20,257 bases of DNA. Source: a virus. The stretch spans positions 1-20,257 of the IMG/VR virus record IMGVR_UViG_3300045999_002214; one strand, written 5' to 3'. Below the pieces are notes generated by a model. The model searched no databases and was not told the DNA's origin. It saw only the letters and a list, made by a program, of their open reading frames with translations. The position numbers were made by a program, and so were the translations under genes. Below, in pieces: positions 2,235 to 17,721 of this stretch; position 1 is the first letter of the stretch, and each line of letters starts with the position of its first letter.

Positions 2235-2444
2235 TCAGTTCAGTGGGGTGATGCCATTGGCTTCTTCAAAAGCCAAGACTTGTGCAAGGGGATAGCGAAC
2301 GCGTGGTGTACCTGCTGGTAGGCCAATGCGTGGTGCAGTGACGTAAGCAGGGCCAATGCCGCGTGCGCGTTGGTTTTTGATGGCAGCTGGTTTCATGCCC
2401 CAACGTGCTGCTAGCTCATCAGTGGTGAGGAATGGCTCAGTCAT
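2235..2444 (-). CDS. Excisionase/MerR-like winged HTH protein
   Basis: A 69-residue protein beginning with LTTDELAARWGMKPAAIKN (6-24), a helix-turn-helix of the AlpA/excisionase type, followed by a basic wing (RARGIGPAYV...RVRYPLAQVLAFEE). The closing segment resembles the 'RYPLSEVLAF' strand-helix seen in phage helix_turn_helix_17-type proteins. It probably binds DNA as a regulator, or as an excisionase if the phage is temperate; no integrase is visible in the window. It overlaps the bet gene by 8 bases and ends one base before ssb begins. Confidence 0.78.
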   Translation of the reverse strand: MTEPFLTTDELAARWGMKPAAIKNQRARGIGPAYVTAPRIGLPAGTPRVRYPLAQVLAFEEANGITPLN

Positions 2445-3195
2445 CAGCGAAGGGATCCTCAGTGGTGGGGGATAGAGCAGCCTCTCTGGCTAGTGCTAAC
2501 TCCATGAGCTGTTGATTCTGCTCATCGCTGAGATCAGGCTTGCGCTTATCCATGCGTGCAACGACCTCTTGCAGCTTGTCCAGCGTGTCGGCTTTGGCAA
2601 TAGCAGCCTTGCCGGCTTGGAACAACTTGGCATCACCTGCAGGCAGCGATGGCGCAGGTGCAGCGGTCACTGTCACCGGCTCCACTTCTGCCTGCTGCAT
2701 CTCATCAGTGCTGTAGACGCCGGACATATCAGCAGGGAATGCCTTGCGCAATGCCAATGCCTCAGAGCATTTGGCAATCATCGCGGCGCCCATCTTGGCC
2801 CATAAGCCTTGGCCGGCGTTGTAGTCAGCAAAACGTGCGACCCCAACAAATGGATGCTGGCTGCCCTTGCGGTGGATGATGGTCTTAGCAGCAGCCGGCG
2901 GCTTGCTGCCAAGCCATACGTCAGTCCACTGGCCATCGTCACCGCACCAGTAGGTTTCAGAGCCATCAAGCTGGCCGGTGCGCTCAGCAATAGCACGCAA
3001 GCCGTCAATGCCGGCTTGGATGGTCATCTTGCCGCCGCGCTTGATGGCGTAGATCTGCTTGCTGAATGGATCCAGTCCAGTGCGCTGGCAGGCGTAGGCA
3101 AACAGCCGCAACTCGTCATTGCTGCAGCCAGGCGCAATGGTGGTTGAGATCAGCTGCGTTTGCTCTGGTGTCCAGAGCGTGATGCTAGAAGTCAT
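2437..3195 (-). CDS. bet: Bet/RecT-family single-strand annealing protein
   Basis: A 252-residue recombinase expected to pair complementary single strands exposed by the neighbouring exonuclease. Characteristic Bet segments are CQRTGLDPFSKQIYAIKR (36-53), the conserved TIQAGIDGLRAIAERTG (58-74), and W-KM-AAMIAKCSEALALRKAF (132-153). The C-terminal 80 residues are low-complexity and acidic, as usual for partner or SSB contact regions. The start ATG at 3195 overlaps the exonuclease end by 11 bases and has no Shine-Dalgarno sequence, implying coupling. It forms an exonuclease-annealase-SSB module with its neighbours. Confidence 0.94.
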   Translation of the reverse strand: MTSSITLWTPEQTQLISTTIAPGCSNDELRLFAYACQRTGLDPFSKQIYAIKRGGKMTIQAGIDGLRAIAERTGQLDGSETYWCGDDGQWTDVWLGSKPPAAAKTIIHRKGSQHPFVGVARFADYNAGQGLWAKMGAAMIAKCSEALALRKAFPADMSGVYSTDEMQQAEVEPVTVTAAPAPSLPAGDAKLFQAGKAAIAKADTLDKLQEVVARMDKRKPDLSDEQNQQLMELALAREAALSPTTEDPFADD

Positions 3196-3976
3196 CGGAT
3201 GTGATAGTTGGGTTGGCAGTTAATGCCCATGAAGGCAGGCTGAGCGCTTGGCAGTGATCGCCGTAACCCGGCCACTCCTTAGTGGCTTGGCAGTCGGCAA
3301 TCACGCGCATGTCATGTTGCCGCAGCTCATCACCAGCAGCCATAGCCGCGGCATCGAGCTGGTAAACCGCAACCGCGTACGGCGCAGTCTTCTCAACGGC
3401 AATGAACACAAATCGCTCAGCACCGTGCAAGCCGGCTAGGTAATGGCTCGCTTGCACATGGTAGCGAAAGGTGGCGACGCTACGGGCAAAGCCAGCAGGG
3501 CTGGCGTCGGTAGTGGTCTTGAGGTCAACCACTGTTGCGCCGTCATACCAGTCAGGGCGGCACTTGCACCGCAGGCCGGTAGTGGCGTCATCCCACCAGA
3601 AGGACTGCTCAGCCTTGCCATGGGCCAGCAGTGCTGCAGCAGCAGGGTGCAAACGCACGCTTGCGGCCATAGATAGTGCAAGTGCCATATCGGACTGCGT
3701 GACGGCTTCAATGCCATCAGCAGCCATACGCTCTGCTTGCTCTTTGCCGGCCTTGGTATTGCGCGGACCGCAGACGCCATAGCGCTGCAGCAACTCCTCC
3801 GGCTCGAGCACTGCGCAATGCACCAGTGAGCCCAGCCGCATTGCAGCAGTTGGTTCCGGTGCGCTGCGCTTGGGATCGAGGTAGCGGCTCCAGTAGTGGT
3901 AGGGCGATTTGGCCACTGCGTGCAAGTGGCTAGCGCTGACGGCTGGGTCGGCGTGGTAGTCGGCGTTGCTGGTCAC
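3185..3976 (-). CDS. RecE-like PD-(D/E)XK exonuclease
   Basis: A 263-residue nuclease of the PDDEXK/RecE (exodeoxyribonuclease VIII-like) class, expected to resect 5' ends and deliver 3' tails to Bet. The RecB-type motif series is visible: LGSLVHCAVLEP (48-59, His53), a Glu in KAEQSFWW (121-128), RPDW (140-143, Asp142), VVDLKTT (149-155, Asp151 and Lys153), and the helix YHVQASHYL (172-180) with the conserved Gln/Tyr pair. Length fits the stand-alone nuclease domain. The start is a GTG at 3976 that overlaps the previous stop as GTGA. Confidence 0.89.
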   Translation of the reverse strand: MTSNADYHADPAVSASHLHAVAKSPYHYWSRYLDPKRSAPEPTAAMRLGSLVHCAVLEPEELLQRYGVCGPRNTKAGKEQAERMAADGIEAVTQSDMALALSMAASVRLHPAAAALLAHGKAEQSFWWDDATTGLRCKCRPDWYDGATVVDLKTTTDASPAGFARSVATFRYHVQASHYLAGLHGAERFVFIAVEKTAPYAVAVYQLDAAAMAAGDELRQHDMRVIADCQATKEWPGYGDHCQALSLPSWALTANPTITSDDF

Positions 3977-7194: not shown

Positions 7195-7332
7195 GTGCGC
7201 TTAAGTCAGCCAACGCATATACGCTTAAGCCAAGACCTATTGCGGCAACTGGATTCTTGGCGTGGTGATCGCATGAACCGCGCTACCGCAATTCGGTTGC
7301 TGCTTGAGCAGGCGCTTAAGGAGTCCAAGTGA
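7195..7332 (+). CDS. Ribbon-helix-helix (Arc/CopG-like) regulator
   Basis: A 45-residue protein with GTG start at 7195. Residues 7-15 (THIRLSQDL) form the DNA-contacting strand, followed by helix LLRQLDSWRGD and helix NRATAIRLLLEQALKE, the standard RHH pattern. Such proteins act as dimers, often repressing their own promoter; the palindrome at 7152-7168 is a plausible site. The stop overlaps the primase start as GTGA. The gene is easy to miss because of its size and GTG start. The coding frame is open upstream only to 7162, so no longer product is likely. Confidence 0.74.
   Translation: MRLSQPTHIRLSQDLLRQLDSWRGDRMNRATAIRLLLEQALKESK
7198..7320. repeat. Three CGCTTAAG direct repeats
   Basis: Exact octamers CGCTTAAG at 7198-7205, 7222-7229 and 7313-7320, all within or at the end of the RHH gene. 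The first two share further bases on the right (TCAGCCAA versus CCAA). CTTAAG is itself palindromic. They could be binding sites or simply repeated Leu-Ser/Leu-Lys codons. Confidence 0.4.
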
Positions 7333-9395
7333 ACCTGCAGCAAGAACTCGCGCGCCTACCCGATGAATGGGGTTTTGTTGCCGTGGATGGGCAGAAGCGC
7401 CCGTATCAGTCGGCATGGCAAGACAACCCGCTCAATAAGGATGCGCTGCTGGCTGAATTGAGCAGTGGTCGCGCACGTGCTATTGGCGTGTGCTGCGGCG
7501 TGCCATCTGGCGGCCTGTTGTTTCTGGATCACGACGGCAAGTCCGCCAGCACGCTCTTGGCCGAATGGGATCTGCCGCTGTCATCCCTGCCGCGCAGCTG
7601 GGTGGTCAAATCTGGCCGCGATGGCCGGATGCAGATCATCTACCGCGTGCCTGAGCAGTATTGGGACGCCATCGCCACACGCAAATACAAGACCGGTGTC
7701 ATTGATGACGACGGCAAAGCCGAGCAAGTAGAGCTGCGCTGGAACGGCTGCCAGTCCGTTGTAGCCGGCGCACACCCGCAAACCAGTGGCTATTACTGGG
7801 TATCAGGCCATGGGCCAGGCGAGCGCGACATAGCAGAAGCGCCGATTGGACTAATTGAGCGGATGCTTAAACCGCAGCCGCAGCCAGTGCGCGCCGAACT
7901 AGTCCAGATACCTGATCCGCAAGGTGATGCGGATCGCGCGCGGTCATACCTAGCTGCATTGGATGCCAGCCGCGCTGATGACTACGACGATTGGCTTGCG
8001 GTTGGCATGTCGCTGCACAGCGTTGGTGACGACAGCCTGCTCGATCAATGGGAGCAGTGGTCTGCGCAGTCAAGCAAGCACAAGCCCAGTGACTGTCAGC
8101 GCAAGTGGCGCAGCTTCAAGAAATCCGGCATCACCCTTGGCACCCTTGGCGATATGGCCAAGAAAGACGGCTGGCGTAGCACCAGTCCAGTCCGGCGCGT
8201 GACTGGTGGTCGCACGGCTGATTCAGGGCCGCAGGCTGGCGGTCGTGCGCCAGTAAATGGCAAGCCGGAGAAGTTAGAGGCAGCAGAGCTGCTCGAATAC
8301 CTGCGTCGCAATGCGGGCGATATCCGTCTCAACATCTTCACCCAACAGATCGAGGTCGACAATCAAGTGATCGAAGGCGTCGACCGCTATTACCTCAAGC
8401 TGGCAGAACAGGGCTACAAGGTCGGCAAGGAGTTGGCCATTGACTGCTTGGTCCAAGTGGCGAGCGAAAAGCCATACGACCCGGTGCGGCTTTACCTCGA
8501 GCATTGCGCGGATCATGTCGAGCCAACCTATATCGACCGGCTGGCCACCACTTACCTGCGGCCATGCGATGCCGACCTGCCAGAGCCGACCATCTACGAC
8601 GAGATGCTCAAGCGCACGTTGATCGGTGCGGTGGCGCGCGCCTTCAACCCTGGCTGCAAGCACGACACCGCTTGCGTCCTAATGGGTGATCAAGGTGCCT
8701 ACAAGTCCAGCTTCTGGGGCTGCCTAGGTGGCCCGTTCTTCTCAGATGCACTCGGCGATATATCTAGCAAAGACGACGTAATGGTGCTCCATCGCTCATG
8801 GATGATGGAGTGGGCAGAGCTGGATCACATCACAGGTAGGCGGCACGCCGGACAGGTAAAAGCCTTTCTTTCGCAAGCTGTAGACCTGCTCCGCGTGCCA
8901 TATGGCAAAGCGGTTGAGTCATTCCCAAGGCGTGGCATCATCGTTGGCACAACCAACAAGACCACTGGCTTTCTAGTAGACGAAACCGGCAACCGCCGCT
9001 TCTGGGTCATCCCAACCACCAAGACACAGCAGGACCAGATTGATACCGCTTCGCTAATGCTTGAACGCGATGCGATTTGGTCTGCTGTTGTACATGCCTA
9101 CAGGGCAGGTGAGACAAACCGTTTATCGGTAGACATGGAAATTCAGGTCACAGAGGAGAATAACAACTATGTCATTGATTCGCCTTGGCGTAGTGCTATT
9201 GAGGAGCATCTTGAGAAGCGCCGTACAGTCGAACCGCTTACAACTGAAGAGCTTTTGAATAACGCAATCAAGAAACCCGCCGAACGCCAAACCCGCGCAG
9301 ACCAGATGCAAGTGGCTTCGATTCTCAAGGATCTTGGCTACGTCGCAAAACGAGAGGCGTCTGGGCGGCGGCGGCGGTACTTCGCAAAGCCCTAG
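7329..9395 (+). CDS. Primase-polymerase fused to a VapE-type helicase
   Basis: A 688-residue replication protein with GTG start at 7329 and a good ribosome-binding site AAGGAG (7318-7323). Domain 1 (about 1-185) is a bifunctional primase/polymerase: metal-binding LDHD (66-69) and the catalytic-His motif VVAGAHPQTSGYYW (144-157). Domain 2 (about 201-283) resembles PriCT-2 (YDDWLAVGMSLHSVG, KWRSFKKSG). Domain 3 (about 380-600) is VapE/virulence-associated E: Walker A GDQGAYKSS (453-461), WMMEWAEL (491-498), GTTN (540-543) and DETGNRRFWV (551-560). Such proteins prime and unwind phage or plasmid DNA. The last about 80 residues look like a winged-helix tail. It is the presumed initiator; a candidate origin lies directly downstream. 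Confidence 0.92.
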   Translation: MNLQQELARLPDEWGFVAVDGQKRPYQSAWQDNPLNKDALLAELSSGRARAIGVCCGVPSGGLLFLDHDGKSASTLLAEWDLPLSSLPRSWVVKSGRDGRMQIIYRVPEQYWDAIATRKYKTGVIDDDGKAEQVELRWNGCQSVVAGAHPQTSGYYWVSGHGPGERDIAEAPIGLIERMLKPQPQPVRAELVQIPDPQGDADRARSYLAALDASRADDYDDWLAVGMSLHSVGDDSLLDQWEQWSAQSSKHKPSDCQRKWRSFKKSGITLGTLGDMAKKDGWRSTSPVRRVTGGRTADSGPQAGGRAPVNGKPEKLEAAELLEYLRRNAGDIRLNIFTQQIEVDNQVIEGVDRYYLKLAEQGYKVGKELAIDCLVQVASEKPYDPVRLYLEHCADHVEPTYIDRLATTYLRPCDADLPEPTIYDEMLKRTLIGAVARAFNPGCKHDTACVLMGDQGAYKSSFWGCLGGPFFSDALGDISSKDDVMVLHRSWMMEWAELDHITGRRHAGQVKAFLSQAVDLLRVPYGKAVESFPRRGIIVGTTNKTTGFLVDETGNRRFWVIPTTKTQQDQIDTASLMLERDAIWSAVVHAYRAGETNRLSVDMEIQVTEENNNYVIDSPWRSAIEEHLEKRRTVEPLTTEELLNNAIKKPAERQTRADQMQVASILKDLGYVAKREASGRRRRYFAKP

Positions 9396-9934: not shown

Positions 9935-10081
9935 ATGACCCAAGCAGTGGCGTATGCCGCGGCCATTGCCGACAACGCCACTGATGACGGCGTGCCGCTA
10001 CCCATGGAGCTGGTCGACAGCTTTGCCGCTGATTACGAACGCATCATCACCAGCCTCGTCACTGCCGCCACCGCCAAATGA
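9935..10081 (+). CDS. 48-residue acidic helical protein
   Basis: ATG 9935 lies 4 bases after the previous stop and gives MTQAVAYAAAIADNATDDG...ERIITSLVTAATAK. In-frame ATGs at 9854 and 9872 would extend it upstream (SSLIHIPAKQQPVINRLHE is a plausible N-terminus) at the cost of a 59- to 77-base overlap, so the start is uncertain. The stop overlaps the sliding-clamp ATG as ATGA, indicating a translated, coupled frame. No domain recognised. Confidence 0.58.
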   Translation: MTQAVAYAAAIADNATDDGVPLPMELVDSFAADYERIITSLVTAATAK

Positions 10082-11118
10082 AAGCCGTCACCTGTCAAGC
10101 CGATCTAGATCACGCGTTGCGCACCATTGCACCCGCTGTTGGCCATCGCAGTCCACATCCGATCCTTGATTGCTGCCTGATCCAAGCCGCTGGTGGCGTC
10201 ATGACCATCACCGGCTTCAACCTTGATCTCGGCATCACCGTCACCATCCCAGCCGCGGTCGAGACCGATGGCGCTGTAGCGCTGCCGTATCGGCTGCTGG
10301 CTGGCCTTGTAAGCCGCTTTGACGGCGATGAGGCTCTGGCCCTTGCAGATGGCGCTCTGACGGCCTCTAGCGGCTCCTACGGGCTTGCAGCGGCCGATGC
10401 GGCGGATTATCCAGCGCTGCCGGTTGTAGACGCCGCCACGAGCGAGCTGCACCTATCCGCCGGTATCCGCGCCTGCATGGCAGCTGCCAGCACCGACGCC
10501 AGCAAGCAGATGCTTCAAGGCATCCACCTCGGCAATGGCCACATGGAAGCCACAGACGGCCATCGCCTCATGCGTTACGCCATTGACCTGCCAGATGGCC
10601 TAGACCTCGTGCTGCCAGCCAGCACCATGCGCCTGCTGCAGGACCGCGTGGTCACGATCGCAGTTGCCAAAGGCCAAGCCGTGATTGACGCAGGCGACGG
10701 CATCACCATCTACAGCCGCATCATGGATGGCACCTACCCAGACGTAGCAAAGCTGGTGCCTAGCGAGTTCAAGCACGCCATCACCGCCGACCGTCGTCGC
10801 CTGACGCGCGCCCTAGAGCGTGTCGCCATCATTGCCGATGCGCACAACTCCGTCGTCAAGCTCACCGCTGGCAGTGGTGGCCTTGAGATCAGCGCCGAAG
10901 CCGATGCCAACAATGGCCGCGAGCTGTTAGCCGTAGAAGGCGCTGCCACTGGCGCATGGGCGTTCAACGTCCACTACCTGCTGGATGGCCTAAAAGCATT
11001 CCGGAATCATGAAGCGGTTAAGCTTTTAGCTAACAGCGCTACGACTCCAGTAGTGTTGACACCATCAGACGACGACGGTAAAACCTATCTCGTCATGCCA
11101 GTGCAAATCAAACAGTGA
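10078..11118 (+). CDS. dnaN: Phage DNA polymerase III beta-clamp homologue
   Basis: A 346-residue sliding clamp (bacterial DnaN is about 366-370), a ring that tethers the replicative polymerase to DNA. The clamp signatures MEATDGHRLMRYAIDLP (156-172) and SRIMDGTYPD (213-222) match the second and third domain landmarks of DnaN, and the end LVMPVQIKQ matches the usual VMPMR-type terminus. The N-terminal domain is shorter than in bacteria. It sits between a small coupled gene and a methyltransferase (GTGA overlap). It presumably serves phage replication by a host or unseen phage polymerase, or helps late transcription as in T4. Confidence 0.92.
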   Translation: MKAVTCQADLDHALRTIAPAVGHRSPHPILDCCLIQAAGGVMTITGFNLDLGITVTIPAAVETDGAVALPYRLLAGLVSRFDGDEALALADGALTASSGSYGLAAADAADYPALPVVDAATSELHLSAGIRACMAAASTDASKQMLQGIHLGNGHMEATDGHRLMRYAIDLPDGLDLVLPASTMRLLQDRVVTIAVAKGQAVIDAGDGITIYSRIMDGTYPDVAKLVPSEFKHAITADRRRLTRALERVAIIADAHNSVVKLTAGSGGLEISAEADANNGRELLAVEGAATGAWAFNVHYLLDGLKAFRNHEAVKLLANSATTPVVLTPSDDDGKTYLVMPVQIKQ

Positions 11119-12263
11119 CATCCATCAAGGATCTCAAATCCGATCATAAAAACGCCAGAAAGCGTACAGATCGCTCGGCTGCGCTCATCGCTGAATCACT
11201 CAAGCGATATGGCGCAGCACGCAGCATCGTCATTGATGAAGATGGCCGGATCCTTGCTGGCAATGGCACTGTCGAAGGTGCCAAAGCGGCAGGCATTAAT
11301 AAACTGCGTGTTATCGAAGCAGAAGGCGATGAACTTATTGCCGTACGTCGCGCTGGCTTAACTGAAGACGAAAAGGTAGGCTTAGCACTCGCTGATAACA
11401 GGTCCAGCGACCTCAGCGATTGGGATCACGAGATGCTCCGGCAGCTCAGCGAAGAGCATGACCTCACGCCGTGGTTTGAGGATGATGAGCTACTGGCAGA
11501 GGTACTAGAGCCTGAGCAAGGCTTGACGGATGCCGATGACGTACCTGAGGCGCCAGAGGACCCCATCACCAAGCCCGGCGACCTTTGGATCCTTGGTAAC
11601 CATCGCCTGCTTTGCGGAGACAGCACCAACCCGCAGCACGTCGAACGCCTTATGGACGGCAAAAAGGCGGACATGGTTTTTACTGACCCGCCCTATGGAA
11701 TGAACCTAGATACCGACTACTCAAAAATGGGGACTTCAACCAAGTCCTACAAACCTGTTCACGACGACGACAAGCCCTTCAACGCTGGCGCAATGATGCG
11801 CCTTCTTCCATCTCCTATTTGGTACATCTGGGGCGCGGACTATTTTTGCAACTCCATTCCTATCTGGGATCAAGGCTCCACTCTTGTCTGGGCAAAGGCT
11901 CACTCAGAAGACGAAAATAAGGTTTACGGCTCTTCCTTCGAGCTGTGCTGGCGATACCCCAAAGCCAAGAAAGAGCTGTGGTTCGTCCGCCGCATACACA
12001 TGACCGACGAGCACTTAAAGGCGCATCCAACCCAAAAGCCTTGTGAGCTTTCTGTCCGCGCTATTGAAAAAGACAGCAAGCCAGGTCAGCTCATCGTTGA
12101 TCTTTTTGGCGGTTCAGGCACCACCCTCATCGCCTGCGAAAAGACCTCACGCCACTGCCGCATGATGGAACTCGACCCCGCCTACTGCGACGTCATCGTC
12201 AAGCGCTGGGAAGACTTCACCGGCAAGAAAGCTACACTTGAGGAACATAAGGAGGCGCTGTAA
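11115..12263 (+). CDS. ParB-domain / DNA methyltransferase fusion
   Basis: A 382-residue protein with GTG start overlapping the clamp stop. Residues 1-110 are a ParB/Srx-like N-terminal domain (RILAGNGTVEGAKAAG, 45-60; ALADNRSSDLSDWD, 91-104). The C-terminal half is an N6-adenine or N4-cytosine methyltransferase: LCGDST (166-171), catalytic DPPYG (191-195), HPTQKP (304-309) and the AdoMet motif DLFGGSGTT (329-337). The DPPY-before-FGGSG order indicates the beta class. No restriction enzyme is adjacent, so it is an orphan that may protect phage DNA or mark it for packaging; the recognition site cannot be read from sequence. The family is common beside phage terminases. Confidence 0.92.
   Translation: MTSIKDLKSDHKNARKRTDRSAALIAESLKRYGAARSIVIDEDGRILAGNGTVEGAKAAGINKLRVIEAEGDELIAVRRAGLTEDEKVGLALADNRSSDLSDWDHEMLRQLSEEHDLTPWFEDDELLAEVLEPEQGLTDADDVPEAPEDPITKPGDLWILGNHRLLCGDSTNPQHVERLMDGKKADMVFTDPPYGMNLDTDYSKMGTSTKSYKPVHDDDKPFNAGAMMRLLPSPIWYIWGADYFCNSIPIWDQGSTLVWAKAHSEDENKVYGSSFELCWRYPKAKKELWFVRRIHMTDEHLKAHPTQKPCELSVRAIEKDSKPGQLIVDLFGGSGTTLIACEKTSRHCRMMELDPAYCDVIVKRWEDFTGKKATLEEHKEAL
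12249..12255 (+). promoter_or_regulatory. Strong Shine-Dalgarno of the small terminase gene
   Basis: AAGGAGG lies 7 bases upstream of ATG 12263, inside the end of the methyltransferase gene. It fixes the start codon and contrasts with the SD-less early genes. Confidence 0.85.
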
Positions 12264-12586
12264 TGGCTGCGCCTGGCACCACTAAAGCTGAAACCGAAAT
12301 GCGGGCGCAGCGCTTTGCCCGCATCATCGCCAATGGCGGTCGGCGTTCCGATTGCTTGAGGTACGCGGAAGAGAACTGGGGGGTAAAAGCCGGCGCTTGC
12401 GACCGCTACTTGTCCATGGCGCGGGACATGCTCAAAGCCGATTGGGACATCGAACGCCCGCAGATGATTGCTGACCTGCTATCCCAATGCAGCACACTGC
12501 AGATGGAAGCCCGACGCGCTGGGCAGTATCACATCGCTCTTGGCGCCATTAACACCGCAGCCAAGCTCGCCCAACTCTGCTCGTGA
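12263..12586 (+). CDS. terS: Terminase small subunit (putative)
   Basis: A 107-residue helical protein directly upstream of, and overlapping by GTGA, the large terminase. Residues about 15-55 (AQRFARIIANGGRRSDCLRYAEENWGV, then CDRYLSMARDML) look like the HTH-type DNA-binding region of small terminases, which recognise the packaging site and load the motor. The C-terminal half has helices suited to ring oligomerisation. Assignment rests on position and fold style; I see no family-specific motif. Confidence 0.75.
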   Translation: MAAPGTTKAETEMRAQRFARIIANGGRRSDCLRYAEENWGVKAGACDRYLSMARDMLKADWDIERPQMIADLLSQCSTLQMEARRAGQYHIALGAINTAAKLAQLCS

Positions 12587-13932
12587 GCATCCTTGCCGCA
12601 GCGCCGACCGGCAGTGTGCTGCAGCAGCTCAATTACGGCAGTGGTGATGTCGACATGCCGGATTTGCTAACCCGCATCCGCGCTGACCTGCATCCTGGCC
12701 AGCTTGCCTTTGTCGATGACAGCGACACGCAGATCCTTGGCATCAGCGCTGGTTACGGCGCCGGCAAGACACGTGCGCTGTGCGCCAAGGCGGTGATGCT
12801 GGCCGCAGCCAATCAAGGCTTCATCGGCGCTGTGATGGAGCCAACCGGCCCATTGATTCGTGACATCTGGCAAAACGACTTCGAGCAGTTCCTCGAGGCG
12901 TATGAGATCCCATACACCTTCAGGGCTAGTCCGCTGCCTGAATACATGCTGCACCTACCAGGCGGTGACACCAAGATCTTGTGTCGCAGTTTCGAGAACT
13001 GGAGCCGCATCATCGGCCTAAACCTTGCATGGGTGCTTGCCGATGAGATCGACACGGTGACGCCATCCATAGCCAATAAGGCATTCCCTAAGATCCTTGG
13101 CCGCTTGCGTTCTGGCAATGTGCGGCAATTTGGCGCTGCCAGCACACCAGAGGGCTTCCGATGGATGTGGAACACATTTGGCAGTGAGGATGCCAAAGGT
13201 CGCGCTGATCGCAAGCTCATCAAGATGCGCTCAGTCGACAATCCGCATTTGCCGCCGGACTTCATCGAACGCCTACAGGCCAACTACGACCCCAACCTGC
13301 TGCGGGCGTATCTAGACGGCGAGTTCGTCAACCTGACTACTGGCACCATCTACGACCGGTTCAGCCGCGACAAGCACGTGGTGGCTGAGCTGCCGGATCT
13401 AGACCGCGAGCCGCTGCGCATTGGCGTTGACTTCAACGTTGGCAACATGTCTGCTGTGATCGGCGTCCGCAGCGGCAGCAGCCTGCTAGTGATTGATGAG
13501 ATCAGCGGCGCGCATGACACTGATGCACTGGCGCAAGAGATCCAAGCGCGCTATCCGCATCGTCGTATCTACATCTACCCAGATGCCAGCGGCGGCAACC
13601 GCAGCACCAACGCAAGCCAGACCGATATCCAGATCCTCGAGTCCTATGGCATGTCAAACCAGTCACCACGGGCAAATCCTCCCGTTCGTGATCGCGTGGC
13701 TGCTGTTCAGGCTTTGCTGGAAAACGGCAAGGGTCAAGTCAGGCTGAGCATCCACCAGCGCTGCAAGCGGCTGATCGAATGCCTAGAGCTGCAGTGCTAC
13801 ACCGACAAAGGCGACCCTGACAAAGATGCCGGCCATGACCATATGAATGACGCGCTCGGCTACTTGATATGGCGTGAATTCAACCCATTACACGCAGGTG
13901 CTGGCCGTAGCACAGGCATCAGACTATATTGA
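12583..13932 (+). CDS. terL: Terminase large subunit
   Basis: A 449-residue DNA-packaging motor. ATPase: Walker A GYGAGKT (57-63), Walker B VLADEID (151-157, Asp154/Glu155) and coupling motif STPEG (187-191). Nuclease: GVDFN (281-285, Asp283), YPDASGG (332-338, Asp334) and HDHMNDALGY (418-427, Asp423), the three metal-binding acids of the RNase H fold. The protein is full length. Start GTG 12583 overlaps the small subunit stop. It cuts concatemers and pumps DNA through the portal encoded two genes later. Confidence 0.95.
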   Translation: MSILAAAPTGSVLQQLNYGSGDVDMPDLLTRIRADLHPGQLAFVDDSDTQILGISAGYGAGKTRALCAKAVMLAAANQGFIGAVMEPTGPLIRDIWQNDFEQFLEAYEIPYTFRASPLPEYMLHLPGGDTKILCRSFENWSRIIGLNLAWVLADEIDTVTPSIANKAFPKILGRLRSGNVRQFGAASTPEGFRWMWNTFGSEDAKGRADRKLIKMRSVDNPHLPPDFIERLQANYDPNLLRAYLDGEFVNLTTGTIYDRFSRDKHVVAELPDLDREPLRIGVDFNVGNMSAVIGVRSGSSLLVIDEISGAHDTDALAQEIQARYPHRRIYIYPDASGGNRSTNASQTDIQILESYGMSNQSPRANPPVRDRVAAVQALLENGKGQVRLSIHQRCKRLIECLELQCYTDKGDPDKDAGHDHMNDALGYLIWREFNPLHAGAGRSTGIRLY

Positions 13933-13956
13933 TTCCGCCAACTATTACATCTACCC

Positions 13957-14277
13957 ATGCTCAAGGGTGCTGAACTGCTCGCCAAGGTCAAAGAACTGGG
14001 CGATATGCCAAAGTCCGAACTGGTACGCGCTTGCGGTTATGTCGTCAAGGATCGCGTGGCATTTACGCAGTTCTATGAGGCATTACTGGAAGCCAAAGGG
14101 CTTGACCTCAACGGCAAGACTGCCAAGCGTGGCCGTGGCTTGACCTACAAAGCCAAGGTGCAATTCAACGGCAAGCTGCAAATCGGTGATGGCTACCTGC
14201 GTGAAATGGGATACGAACCCGGCGCTGAGTTTGACATCAAGATTGGCCGCAACAGCATCACGCTGACTGCTGCTTAA
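13957..14277 (+). CDS. Cyanobacterial-type AbrB-like transcription regulator
   Basis: A 106-residue protein resembling the cyAbrB family that is near-universal in cyanobacteria (regulators of nitrogen and carbon metabolism and other processes). The N-terminal segment KGAELLAKVKELGDMPKSE (3-21) and CGYVVKD mirror the family's opening. Residues 64-103 (YKAKVQFNGKLQIGDGY, then LREMGYEPGAEFDIKIG) are the AbrB-like DNA-binding swapped-hairpin region found at the C-terminus in cyAbrB. It sits between terminase and portal genes, an unusual place for a regulator. Probably host-derived; possible roles are host reprogramming or late-gene control. ATG 13957 follows the terminase stop by 24 bases with no clear ribosome-binding site. 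Confidence 0.85.
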   Translation: MLKGAELLAKVKELGDMPKSELVRACGYVVKDRVAFTQFYEALLEAKGLDLNGKTAKRGRGLTYKAKVQFNGKLQIGDGYLREMGYEPGAEFDIKIGRNSITLTAA

Positions 14278-14303
14278 ACTGCACCTATGATCGCGGCGTT
14301 GTA

Positions 14304-15749
14304 ATGTACACCGGCTTCAATGCATACGACCGGCCTATTGCGCAGCGCCGCGTTACTCGCGTGCAAGATGCCAATACGGCATGGTATGCGCAAGAGCCGC
14401 ATTGGATCCTAATTGAAGATCTACTGCAAGGCACCTACGGGATGCGTCGCAAGCATCGCAGGTACCTGCCGCAGGAGCCACGTGAGCTAGACGAGTCCTA
14501 TGACAACCGCCTAGCACGCAGCGTATGCCCGCCGTTCTATCAACGCCTAGAGCGGATGATGGCTGGCATGTTGACGCGCAAGCCCGTACGGCTTGATGAC
14601 ACAGCTGACATCATCCGCGAGCAGTTGTTTGATGTTGACCTGCAAGGTAATGACCTCAACGTCTGGACCTATGAAACCACCCGCAAGATGGTGCGTTATG
14701 GCCACGTTGGCGTACTGGTGGATGCACCTGCTGATGGCGGTCGACCCTATTGGGTGAGCTACACGCCACGGCAAATCCTTGGCTGGCGCGCTGAGCAGCA
14801 GGAAGGCCGGCAGGTGCTGACGCAGCTGCGGTTGGCTGAAATTGTCACCGTGCCTGACGGTGATTTTGGCGAAAAAACAGTCGAACAGATCCGCGTACTG
14901 ACGCCAGGTGAGTTCCAACTGCATCAAAAGCAAGACAATGGTGATTTTGCAATCATCGACGAAGGCCGCACCAGCCTCGACAAGATTCCTTTTTCAGTTG
15001 CTTATGCGCAGCGCCATGGCTTCATGGAGTCGCGGCCACCGCTGGAAGATATCGCTGAGCTAAACCTCAAGGCGTATCAGATCCAGAGCGACCTGGACAA
15101 TCAGCTCCACATCAGCGCTGTGCCGATGCTGGCGTTCTACGGCTTTCCGTCTGCAGCGGAAGAAGTCAGCGCCGGACCAGGCGAGGCAATCGCATTCCCT
15201 GCTGATGGCCGCGCAGAATATATCGAGCCTGCTGGCCGCAGCTTTGACTATCAATTCCGCAGGCTTGAGCAGCTTGCATTGCAGATCAATGAGCTAGGGC
15301 TATCGGCTGTGCTTGGCCAGAAGCTATCGGCAGAAACTGCAGAAGCAAAGCGCATTGATCGCAGTCAAGGTGACAGCACCATGATGGTAATTGCGCAGAA
15401 TGTGCAGGACATGATTGACAACTGCCTGCAATTTCATGCGCAGTACATCGGCAACAACACATCTGCTGGCAGCAGCTACGTCAACCGCGACTTCCTTGGC
15501 ACACGTCTTGAGCCCGCTGAGATCCAAGCACTGCTGCAGCTTTACACCGCAGGCACAATCACGCAAGAAACATTACTGCGTGAGCTTGCCGAAGGCGATG
15601 TGCTAGGCGACGACTTTAACGTAGATGAGGAGCTTGAGGCTACGGCTAATGCGGGTCTTGATCTACAACCTGCTGGACTGGGTAACCGATCGCTTAGTGG
15701 ACCTGATGATCTGGATGGAGCCGAGGAAACCCAGGAGGCAAGAGCTTGA
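14304..15749 (+). CDS. Portal protein (DUF4055 family)
   Basis: A 481-residue protein in the canonical portal position after the large terminase. DUF4055-like features include the opening YTGFNAYDRPIAQRR, LLQGTYGMRRKHRRYLPQEP (40-59), the NRLARSVCPPFYQRLERM helix (68-85), GHVGVLVDAP (133-142), and the long alpha-helical stem ending around LGQKLSAETAEAKRIDRSQ. Twelve copies would form the DNA gate at one capsid vertex and dock the terminase. The C-terminal 40 residues are acidic and low-complexity, and the gene end overlaps the next one. Confidence 0.88.
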   Translation: MYTGFNAYDRPIAQRRVTRVQDANTAWYAQEPHWILIEDLLQGTYGMRRKHRRYLPQEPRELDESYDNRLARSVCPPFYQRLERMMAGMLTRKPVRLDDTADIIREQLFDVDLQGNDLNVWTYETTRKMVRYGHVGVLVDAPADGGRPYWVSYTPRQILGWRAEQQEGRQVLTQLRLAEIVTVPDGDFGEKTVEQIRVLTPGEFQLHQKQDNGDFAIIDEGRTSLDKIPFSVAYAQRHGFMESRPPLEDIAELNLKAYQIQSDLDNQLHISAVPMLAFYGFPSAAEEVSAGPGEAIAFPADGRAEYIEPAGRSFDYQFRRLEQLALQINELGLSAVLGQKLSAETAEAKRIDRSQGDSTMMVIAQNVQDMIDNCLQFHAQYIGNNTSAGSSYVNRDFLGTRLEPAEIQALLQLYTAGTITQETLLRELAEGDVLGDDFNVDEELEATANAGLDLQPAGLGNRSLSGPDDLDGAEETQEARA

Positions 15750-15969
15750 TTATCACGTCAGCGCTTTACCGGAAGAGGTTTTAGCGATCGTGCGCATCAG
15801 TTGGTACAAAGAAGGCAGACCAGATGAAGTGGATGAAACCATCTTGTACGAAGATGGTCAAAACGGTTATGACGCATTCGCAGCATTAGTTACCACTGCG
15901 CTAAACCGCGGCGCCAATGTCAGCATCCGCAGCGGGTATCAACCGGAAGATCTTGGCATTGAACGATGA
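15715..15969 (+). CDS. Small protein between portal and head genes, unknown function
   Basis: I choose ATG 15715 (MEPRKPRRQELDYHV..., 84 residues); ATG 15706 is equally possible, and ATG 15625 would add a hydrophobic segment but overlap the portal gene by 125 bases. The protein shows regular beta/alpha alternation (VLAIVRISWYKEG, DETILYEDGQNGYDAFAALVTTALNRGANVSIRSGY), so it is probably a compact alpha-beta domain. The stop overlaps the MuF gene start as ATGA. No family recognised. Confidence 0.66.
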   Translation: MEPRKPRRQELDYHVSALPEEVLAIVRISWYKEGRPDEVDETILYEDGQNGYDAFAALVTTALNRGANVSIRSGYQPEDLGIER

Positions 15970-17156
15970 GCACACCAGAAGCGCTATATCGCAATGCAAT
16001 CGACCTAAACCGGTACAGCAATAGCGTTGCGCGACGTGTCATCAATGCCTATAACGACATCATCATTGACGCCGTCAATCAACTGCGCACCATTGATGAT
16101 CTAGCAGCGCCAGTCAAAGCAGCACGGTTGCGTGCAATCCTTGCGCAGCTCAAGGACAGCTTGGCAACATGGGCAGGTGATGCAACGGAGCTGACCGCAT
16201 TAGAGCTGCAAGGCATTGCGGAGCTGCAATCTGAGTTTGTGGCCGATCAACTGCGGCGTGCATTGCCAGCAGGTGCACGTGATGCAGTGCGTACGGTAGA
16301 AATCAGCCCGCAATTTGCGCAGTCAGTAGTGACCACAGATCCAACGCAGATCAACGTGGTGACCTTGAGCGATGACCTATTTGCCGCAGCGTACGGCTCA
16401 CCGCAGACCTACAGCCTGACTGCTGCTCAAGGTGCCACGATCACATTGCCCAATGGCGAAGTGGTCGCCAAGGCGTTTCGTGGTATTGCCGTTGACCAGG
16501 CTGAGCGGTTTTCGCAAGTTGTGCGGCAAGGCTTGCTGACCGGTGAGCCGACACCAGCTATTGCTAAGCGGCTGGTCGGCAATCTCGAATTTGGCGAACA
16601 AGCCAAGACCGTGAAGCAACTGGTTGCAGCAGGCGGTCAAGCAACAGCAGTTGCAGATAATCAAATCGTTACCCTTGTCCGTACAAGCATCAATCAAGTT
16701 GCCAATGCAGCCAGTCAGCAGGTATATGAAGCGAATCAAGACATCACTAAGAAGTATCGCTATGTGGCAACACTGGATACCCGAACCAGCAGCATTTGCC
16801 GTGCATTGGATGGCCGTGAGTTTGAATACGGCAAAGGCCCGACTCCGCCGCAGCACTTCAACTGCCGCAGCACGACGATGCCAGTGATCGACTACAAAGA
16901 GCTTGGCTTCACGCCACCACCACCGGCAAAGCGTGCATCAGCAGGCGGCCAGGTGCCGGCAGATCAGACTTACGGGGAATGGCTAGCAAAGCAAGACCTT
17001 GAGACCAAAGCAAAAGCATTGGGCGCAAACAAGGTGCCGTACTTCAATCGCCTTGCCGATAAATATGGCCCAACTAATGCCGTCGCCAAGTTAGTCCGCG
17101 ATGATGGATCAGAGTTAACCTTAGATCAGCTCCGCGCACGATATGGACCTGCCTAG
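15966..17156 (+). CDS. MuF-like (SPP1 gp7) head morphogenesis protein
   Basis: A 396-residue minor head protein. The MuF core is clear: VRTSINQVANAASQQVYEAN (238-257), TLDTRTSSICRALDGREF (269-286) and PPQHFNCRSTTMPV (294-307). It includes the hallmark Cys278, His297 and Cys300. The long helical N-terminus matches family members that bind the portal and enter the procapsid. The extra C-terminal domain (about 330-396, YGEWLAKQDLETKAKALG...) resembles segments found in phage MuF proteins. Location between portal and scaffold is canonical. Confidence 0.92.
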   Translation: MSTPEALYRNAIDLNRYSNSVARRVINAYNDIIIDAVNQLRTIDDLAAPVKAARLRAILAQLKDSLATWAGDATELTALELQGIAELQSEFVADQLRRALPAGARDAVRTVEISPQFAQSVVTTDPTQINVVTLSDDLFAAAYGSPQTYSLTAAQGATITLPNGEVVAKAFRGIAVDQAERFSQVVRQGLLTGEPTPAIAKRLVGNLEFGEQAKTVKQLVAAGGQATAVADNQIVTLVRTSINQVANAASQQVYEANQDITKKYRYVATLDTRTSSICRALDGREFEYGKGPTPPQHFNCRSTTMPVIDYKELGFTPPPPAKRASAGGQVPADQTYGEWLAKQDLETKAKALGANKVPYFNRLADKYGPTNAVAKLVRDDGSELTLDQLRARYGPA

Positions 17157-17460: not shown

Positions 17461-17491
17461 AGCTGGCAAATCACGCAAAGGTAAGAAGTGA
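17312..17491 (+). CDS. DUF6496-like small basic protein
   Basis: A 59-residue lysine-rich protein beginning MAKKPTKADKKISKVMREYK, followed by AGALRSGKPGPGKGPVVKSRKQAIAIALSEAGK. The combination 'VMREYK.G.LRSG....V.SRKQAIAIALSEA' is characteristic of DUF6496 proteins found in phages and bacteria, role unknown, probably nucleic-acid binding. It lies in a different frame within the previous gene (149-base overlap); its own protein pattern is much more convincing than the overlapping tail. Its stop shares one base with the next ATG (TGATG). Confidence 0.8.
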   Translation: MAKKPTKADKKISKVMREYKAGALRSGKPGPGKGPVVKSRKQAIAIALSEAGKSRKGKK

Positions 17492-17721
17492 TGGCAATCG
17501 GCATCGGCTCGCGTGTCAGCTGGATTTATCAAGGCGTTCGCACCTTTGGGCAGGTAACTGGCGCAGCTGGAAAGCGTGCAACCATCACAACGCAAAATGG
17601 TGGAAAAATAACAAGAGTGGCTCAACCTGGCGACCCAGTGCTTGAGATCAAATCAGAATCCACTGGCGGCAAAGTTTTGAAGCTTCGCTCGGAGCTTCGT
17701 GAAGCACCGTTAAAACGGTAA
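17491..17721 (+). CDS. DUF2945 / HVA1-like Tudor-fold protein
   Basis: A 76-residue small beta-barrel protein. AIGIGSRVSWIYQGVRTFGQV and the end GDPVLEIKSESTGGKVLKLRSEL match the layout of DUF2945 (hypervirulence-associated TUDOR domain), where 'DP.YEIKSD.TG..A..K.S.L' closes the fold. Function of the family is unknown, possibly nucleic-acid or peptide binding. Coupled to the upstream gene by TGATG. Family assignment is by eye and could be wrong, but the small SH3/Tudor-like fold is likely. Confidence 0.68.
   Translation: MAIGIGSRVSWIYQGVRTFGQVTGAAGKRATITTQNGGKITRVAQPGDPVLEIKSESTGGKVLKLRSELREAPLKR

Follow-up and report, generated by a model that had tools for sequence, protein, structure and literature searches.

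A host-derived cyAbrB gene with a diverged DNA-binding domain between the terminase and portal genes of uncultured picocyanophages

Introduction

Why does a virus carry a cyanobacterial regulator between its terminase and portal genes? The gene that raises this question lies in a 20,257-base IMG/VR virus record, an uncultured siphovirus-like contig (the window). The cyAbrB proteins are conserved cyanobacterial regulators that carry the AbrB-type DNA-binding domain at the C-terminus and not at the N-terminus (PMC4284466), and they have recently been proposed to be nucleoid-associated (PMC11368403). Host cyAbrB2 is reported to oligomerise and to bind broadly with a preference for AT-rich DNA; it coats extended AT-rich regions, insertion sequences among them, and keeps the genes located there repressed. 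cyAbrB1 is essential in Synechocystis, binds cyAbrB2 and has binding sites in common with it (PMC11368403). Glutathionylation of the single conserved cysteine of AbrB2 alters both its oligomerisation and its DNA binding (PMC4264147).

Results

The 106-aa open reading frame at 13957..14277 (+ strand; ATG at 13957, TAA at 14275-14277) matched the AbrB-like profile PF14250 over residues 38-103 of 106 (E 1.8e-20), scoring 73.2 bits against a curated cut-off of 25 bits. PHROGs and NCBIfam profile searches gave no match for the protein. A chance ORF was ruled out by the PF14250 score of 73 bits, by conservation in ~190-370 viral matches, and by 80 loci that share an identical start, length and place. 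The profile score, together with a tree position inside the picocyanobacterial cyAbrBs (below), bore out the cyAbrB family call of the original prediction, which had been made from the sequence of the window.

Comparison and modelling divided the protein into two domains. The N-terminal domain (residues 1-49; 13957..14103, + strand) is host-like, with three predicted helices and the sole cysteine, C26. The C-terminal AbrB/DNA-binding domain (residues 58-103; 14128..14265, + strand) was delimited by PF14250 and alignments, and carries phage-specific K73, Q75, D78, R82, N99, S100 and T102. An hhalign alignment to Bacillus subtilis AbrB covered residues 67-103 and, with the PF14250 match at 38-103, placed the AbrB-type domain at the C-terminal and not the N-terminal end. 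An AlphaFold2 model (pLDDT 71, pTM 0.41) comprised three helices in the N-terminal domain and strands in the C-terminal domain. The best Foldseek matches to this model were AbrB and SpoVT, with MazE further down; the top matches had E > 0.1, weak values of the kind expected when the query is one chain of a swapped dimer. The sole PDB sequence match was weak (E 0.02), to 2glw, an archaeal protein with two repeats. The model is consistent with an AbrB fold.

We observed that the gene is spaced ~25 bp from its neighbour on either side. As predicted, the large terminase gene lies upstream (12583..13932, + strand; Terminase_6N/6C, phrog_2) and the portal gene downstream (14304..15749, + strand; phrog_145, E 2e-115). 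A Mu-F-like head morphogenesis gene identified by profile matches follows (15966..17156, + strand), and a small Hva1-type TUDOR-domain protein is encoded at 17488-17721, between the MuF and scaffold genes. An Hva1-type TUDOR domain also occurs inside a capsid-protease fusion of another viral contig (L232). Ahead of the terminase gene lie genes for a homologue of the DNA polymerase III beta-clamp (10078-11118) and, next, for an N6/N4 DNA methylase (11115-12263). The early region encodes a replication protein of Prim-Pol/PriCT_2/VapE-like type (7329-9395, + strand), as well as RecT and a DUF3799 PD-(D/E)XK nuclease (2437-3976, - strand) that are likely a pair for recombination.

A scan of IMG/VR viral contigs confirmed 187 relatives, and alignment-based viral scans found 356 and 367; the three sets share members, and the patterns used for searching restrict their size. 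Recurrence in cyanophages, a check named in the original prediction, is widespread among uncultured picocyanophages, viruses of tiny freshwater cyanobacteria. Full-length cyAbrB was found in 0 of 50,697 phage records: tblastn with the phage protein gave no match, and tblastn with a host cyAbrB gave only partial, N-terminal-half matches (P-TIM68, B23 and S-CBP1). In the initial set of 80 loci, every contig of sufficient length kept cyAbrB after the terminase gene and before portal and MuF. The portal gene was downstream of cyAbrB in 54/79 loci of a second, more diverse set, in which one further contig (L244) has the terminase gene upstream and ends before the portal. Five contigs (L226, L230, L238, L240 and L243) carry a terminase of another branch (27-34% identity), with cyAbrB still adjoining the portal gene.

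We also performed a portal-anchored scan that was not guided by cyAbrB, which yielded 80 loci, 75 of them scorable. cyAbrB was present in 33/75 and absent from 42/75; the 33 carriers comprise 7 from the earlier cyAbrB-guided sets and 26 additional loci. Where it was absent, the terminase and portal genes were separated by a gap of 6-60 bp or by other small genes. With gaps this short, terminase and portal are direct neighbours in relatives that lack cyAbrB, and cyAbrB is an insertion between the two. Some contigs with cyAbrB have an additional gene on one flank. On the portal tree, the pattern of presence and absence needs at least 7 gains or losses. Since the occupants vary and at least 7 changes are needed, the terminase-portal slot is an accessory-gene hotspot, with cyAbrB among its commoner occupants. 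Other occupants of this slot (13933-14303 in the window; gaps of L329-L401) were single-TM micro-proteins, an HNH endonuclease, PAPS-reductase-like and dNMP-kinase-like proteins, and a zinc-ribbon-like 108-aa protein. Where a relative has some other gene in the slot, we checked whether that gene could be a shortened form of cyAbrB, and this was ruled out.

Terminase and portal comparisons put the window closest, among isolates, to the Synechococcus phages KBS-S-2A and S-H1 (75.7-80.4%) and the Prochlorococcus phages P-HS2, MED4-184 and MED4-117 (59.4-73.5%), which infect marine hosts. The cyanosiphoviruses KBS-S-2A, S-H1 and P-HS2 have homologous terminase (73-80%) and portal (59-79%) genes in identical order. 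None of these nearest isolates has cyAbrB; their slot is empty or is occupied by a dNMP-kinase-like gene or by a gene for an unknown protein of 85 aa. In further uncultured phages, cyAbrB is found elsewhere: in lambda-like phages behind the capsid genes (L232, L235), after the endolysin gene and near DNA polymerase (L217, L219), or as a tandem pair near the terminase gene (L236). These unrelated contexts suggest repeated capture.

Non-viral matches to the phage cyAbrB in plasmid and genome scans were confined to cyanobacteria. The plasmid matches comprised 10 records, all from Acaryochloris or Calothrix (38-46%). A genome scan with the single phage protein returned nothing, and a query built from a plasmid-informed alignment returned picocyanobacterial matches. 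The best cellular matches were in Cyanobium/Synechococcus genomes, at up to 61% in one scan and 66% in a genus-level scan. Outside the Aphanothece minutissima/Synechococcus genus group, the majority of cyanobacteria that gave a match carry 2 cyAbrB copies. Within that group (G001-G002, G158-G197), 3 to 11 copies were present in 42/42 genomes examined. Some of the extra copies in these freshwater picocyanobacteria may have come from viruses or genomic islands; one MAG copy (L109) groups with the viral copy L236. Among the most host-like viral contigs (L197-L212), some may be host islands.

The cyAbrB tree was built from 130 rows and 126 columns, and its deeper forks are uncertain because there are only 126 columns. 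Phage and picocyanobacterial proteins formed one group against other cyanobacteria (support 99/100), and the window protein fell in a 12-row clade (support 100/87). We observed that 23/25 slot copies clustered with two other viral copies (support 92/76), and a single clade of all slot copies with L232 and L235 was not rejected by the AU test (p-AU 0.53). These data are consistent with what was likely a single capture of the slot cyAbrB. With the phage proteins lying inside the picocyanobacterial cyAbrBs, and with Cyanobium/Synechococcus as best cellular matches, the proposed origin as a captured host gene held. The host group to which the gene had been said to point proved to be the picocyanobacteria, by both tree and best matches, and the suggested phylogeny placed the protein with neither non-cyanobacterial AbrB nor a toxin-antitoxin clade.

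Median pairwise dN/dS was 0.16 for cyAbrB (0.11 for the N-terminal and 0.17 for the C-terminal domain) and 0.09 for the portal gene. The cyAbrB and portal distances were correlated (Mantel r 0.84, with 0/999 permutations as high). The cyAbrB gene is maintained under purifying selection and is largely co-inherited with the portal gene.

We compared the divergence of the two domains, taking the 12-row clade that holds the window protein as the phage side. Phage-host identity was 75.3% over residues 1-49 and 52.1% over residues 58-103. Host-host identity was 84.5% for the N-terminal and 79.1% for the C-terminal domain, and identity within the phage clade was 86.2% and 88.1%, respectively. Pairs from other cyanobacteria that had diverged to a comparable extent overall had the opposite skew, with N-terminal conservation below C-terminal by 0.13-0.16. 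The control within picocyanobacteria is thin: pairs at matched divergence were few and dominated by the odd MAG copy L109, which has a similar skew and the viral L236 as its closest tree relative, and the three matched pairs left after removal of the top outliers had little or no skew.

The differences in the C-terminal domain fall on positions that are (near-)invariant in hosts. Picocyanobacterial N73, L75, K78, K99, Q100 and R/K102 are replaced by K, Q, D, N, S and T in the phage protein. The phage residues were rare or missing in 82 hosts (K73 0/82, N99 0/82, S100 2/82, T102 1/82), and position 78 was K in 94% of the picocyanobacteria used and in 0/25 slot copies. K73 and R82 aligned in hhalign with R15 and R24 of B. 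subtilis AbrB, both known DNA-contacting residues. The N-terminal C26 was kept in 25/25 phage copies and in 50/59 picocyanobacterial rows. The net charge of the C-terminal domain was similar in phage and host, and the domain therefore looks re-specified and not dead; with no charge loss, the idea that it has lost DNA binding was unsupported. These data suggest that with a host-like partner half and a rewritten DNA-binding half the virus may interfere with or redirect host gene control. Folding constraint alone could also account for the higher conservation of the N-terminal domain.

A hexamer resembling a -10 element precedes both the cyAbrB and the portal gene in the window. TATATT (13925..13930, + strand) lies at -32 from the cyAbrB ATG and overlaps the terminase stop codon, where it is confounded with the terminase coding sequence. 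For the portal gene, the hexamer is TAAACT (14275..14280, + strand), which lies at -29 relative to the ATG and shares bases with the stop codon of cyAbrB. Across loci, such hexamers often overlap the preceding stop codon or sit just past it. In nearly all of the 19 distinct contexts without the usual terminase end upstream, TANNNT occurred at -29 to -33 before cyAbrB, against an average of 0.36 per position; a similar hexamer likewise preceded the portal gene at -26 to -29. A simple scan near the cyAbrB start found no sigma-70 pair and no -35 match, and no terminator-like site or hairpin was found on the + strand in 12200-16200. Because the distance to cyAbrB is constant, the gene could have its own promoter; the TANNNT hexamers may be cassette-specific promoters, and independent transcription of cyAbrB is possible. 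The original description of a late structural operon was fair as to position, but it sits less well with a TANNNT at constant distance even where other genes lie upstream.

Discussion

We propose that the phage protein is probably a captured, re-specified nucleoid-associated protein with host cyAbrB as its target in trans. The capture of a host cyAbrB would have taken place in an ancestor of these picocyanophages, and the gene would have been retained as an accessory cassette in the terminase-portal slot. Once produced in the infected cell, the protein would most likely use the N-terminal domain, which has stayed host-like, to pair with the resident cyAbrB proteins. Its altered C-terminal domain, presumably changed in specificity, would then displace host cyAbrB or carry the complexes to other DNA, and chromatin-type repression by the host would be relieved or redirected in the phage's favour. 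We regard joining and displacement of host cyAbrB as the best explanation because the partner domain is host-like and the DNA-binding domain is altered, and we hold this account as a whole tentatively, at somewhat below even chances. The cysteine whose modification alters AbrB2 oligomerisation and DNA binding sits in the N-terminal domain, the part that the phage keeps host-like.

The chief competing accounts are an action on phage DNA and a metabolic reset of the host. The first is an unlikely alternative explanation, in which a phage nucleoid or regulatory protein tunes late or head-gene expression through a DNA-binding domain fitted to phage sites. It would agree with a DNA-binding domain that changed and was then fixed within phages, with a gene inside the head module, and with the constant-distance TANNNT before cyAbrB and portal as nearby candidate sites. 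However, no conserved operator was identified, and the host-like N-terminal domain would be left unexplained. The gene is also absent from 42/75 scorable portal-matched loci, and is therefore not needed for late transcription across the phage group, whose late expression works regardless. The change at host-(near-)invariant residues speaks against an unaltered copy that simply reinforces the host regulator. It makes the metabolic proposal of the original prediction, in which the protein stands in functionally for host cyAbrB and shifts host carbon and nitrogen metabolism in infection, quite improbable, since the phage protein is unlikely to recognise host cyAbrB targets as the host protein does; this despite host origin, purifying selection and the regulation of nitrogen and carbon genes by host cyAbrB2 (PMC4284466).

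The variability of the slot, with 7 or more changes of cyAbrB presence along the portal tree and either no gene or unrelated ones (HNH endonucleases, a membrane micro-protein, a PAPS-reductase-like gene), raises the prospect that cyAbrB is a nearly neutral passenger hitchhiking beside the portal gene. We give this little credence: dN/dS is 0.16, one intact frame persists across phages with portals down to 73% identity, and similar genes occur in other contexts of other phages. MazE belongs to the AbrB fold class and appears lower in the Foldseek list, but an AbrB/MazE-type antitoxin is extremely improbable here. The neighbours are terminase and portal, with no adjacent toxin gene, the tree position is within cyAbrB, and the DNA-binding domain is C-terminal; a toxin-antitoxin identity was rejected on context and tree.

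Among the partial matches from phage records, all in cyanophage isolates, Prochlorococcus phage P-TIM68 encodes a 52-aa protein (AIR93619.1, L326:1501-1659) that is the cyAbrB N-terminal domain alone, as does viral contig L402 (1501-1656). In B23, gp246 (L327:1414-1842) is an N-terminal domain fused to other sequence, and S-CBP1 (L328:1127-1693) has a marginal fused match (E 0.4). Such N-terminal-only proteins would be possible dominant-negative decoys of host cyAbrB. We checked whether N-terminal-only variants are a common phage theme and found that they are rare. It is a doubtful but conceivable extension of pairing with host cyAbrB that picocyanophages repeatedly convert captured cyAbrB into an anti-silencer, forming mixed complexes in which the DNA-binding domain is re-specified or, as in P-TIM68, lost. 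If this were true, cyAbrB would stand at the forefront of the conflict between cyanobacteria and their phages, the place that H-NS holds in enterobacteria.

Phage- and plasmid-borne antagonists and paralogues of bacterial nucleoid silencers include T7 gp5.5, which acts against H-NS, phage LUZ24 Mip, which acts against MvaT, and truncated H-NST. The proposed logic, a mobile-element protein engaging a host silencer, would be analogous; however, the fold and host group differ, and the phage cyAbrB is itself a homologue of its putative target and is known here from sequence. Phage morons are accessory genes inserted between conserved phage genes. The slot gene resembles them as a single accessory gene of variable presence; the hexamer in front of it is a candidate promoter-like element. 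No coding-strand terminator-like hairpin was found, and cyAbrB sits in a lytic-looking head module. Compared with cyAbrB1 and cyAbrB2 (Sll0359/Sll0822 type, PF14250), the phage protein shares the family, a full-length alignment, the C-terminal DNA-binding domain and the conserved N-terminal domain with its single cysteine (PMC4284466, PMC4264147). It differs in being virus-borne, in lacking ~5 residues between the N-terminal helices and in having a shorter linker.

A literature search for cyAbrB or AbrB in cyanophages, with subscription papers largely outside it, returned no relevant paper. Phage-borne host regulators are a known kind, but the literature searched contained no account of a phage cyAbrB whose DNA-binding half has been rewritten and which is widespread in uncultured picocyanophages yet missing from sequenced phage records. 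A widespread phage version of these conserved regulators, rewritten in this way, would show directly that phages act on the cyAbrB layer of control, and the phage cyAbrB is a ready tool for testing whether cyAbrB silences foreign DNA in cyanobacteria. On the Acaryochloris plasmids pREC2 (L089) and pREC1 (L090), cyAbrB lies just upstream of a gene for an HU-family DNA-binding protein, another nucleoid-protein context.
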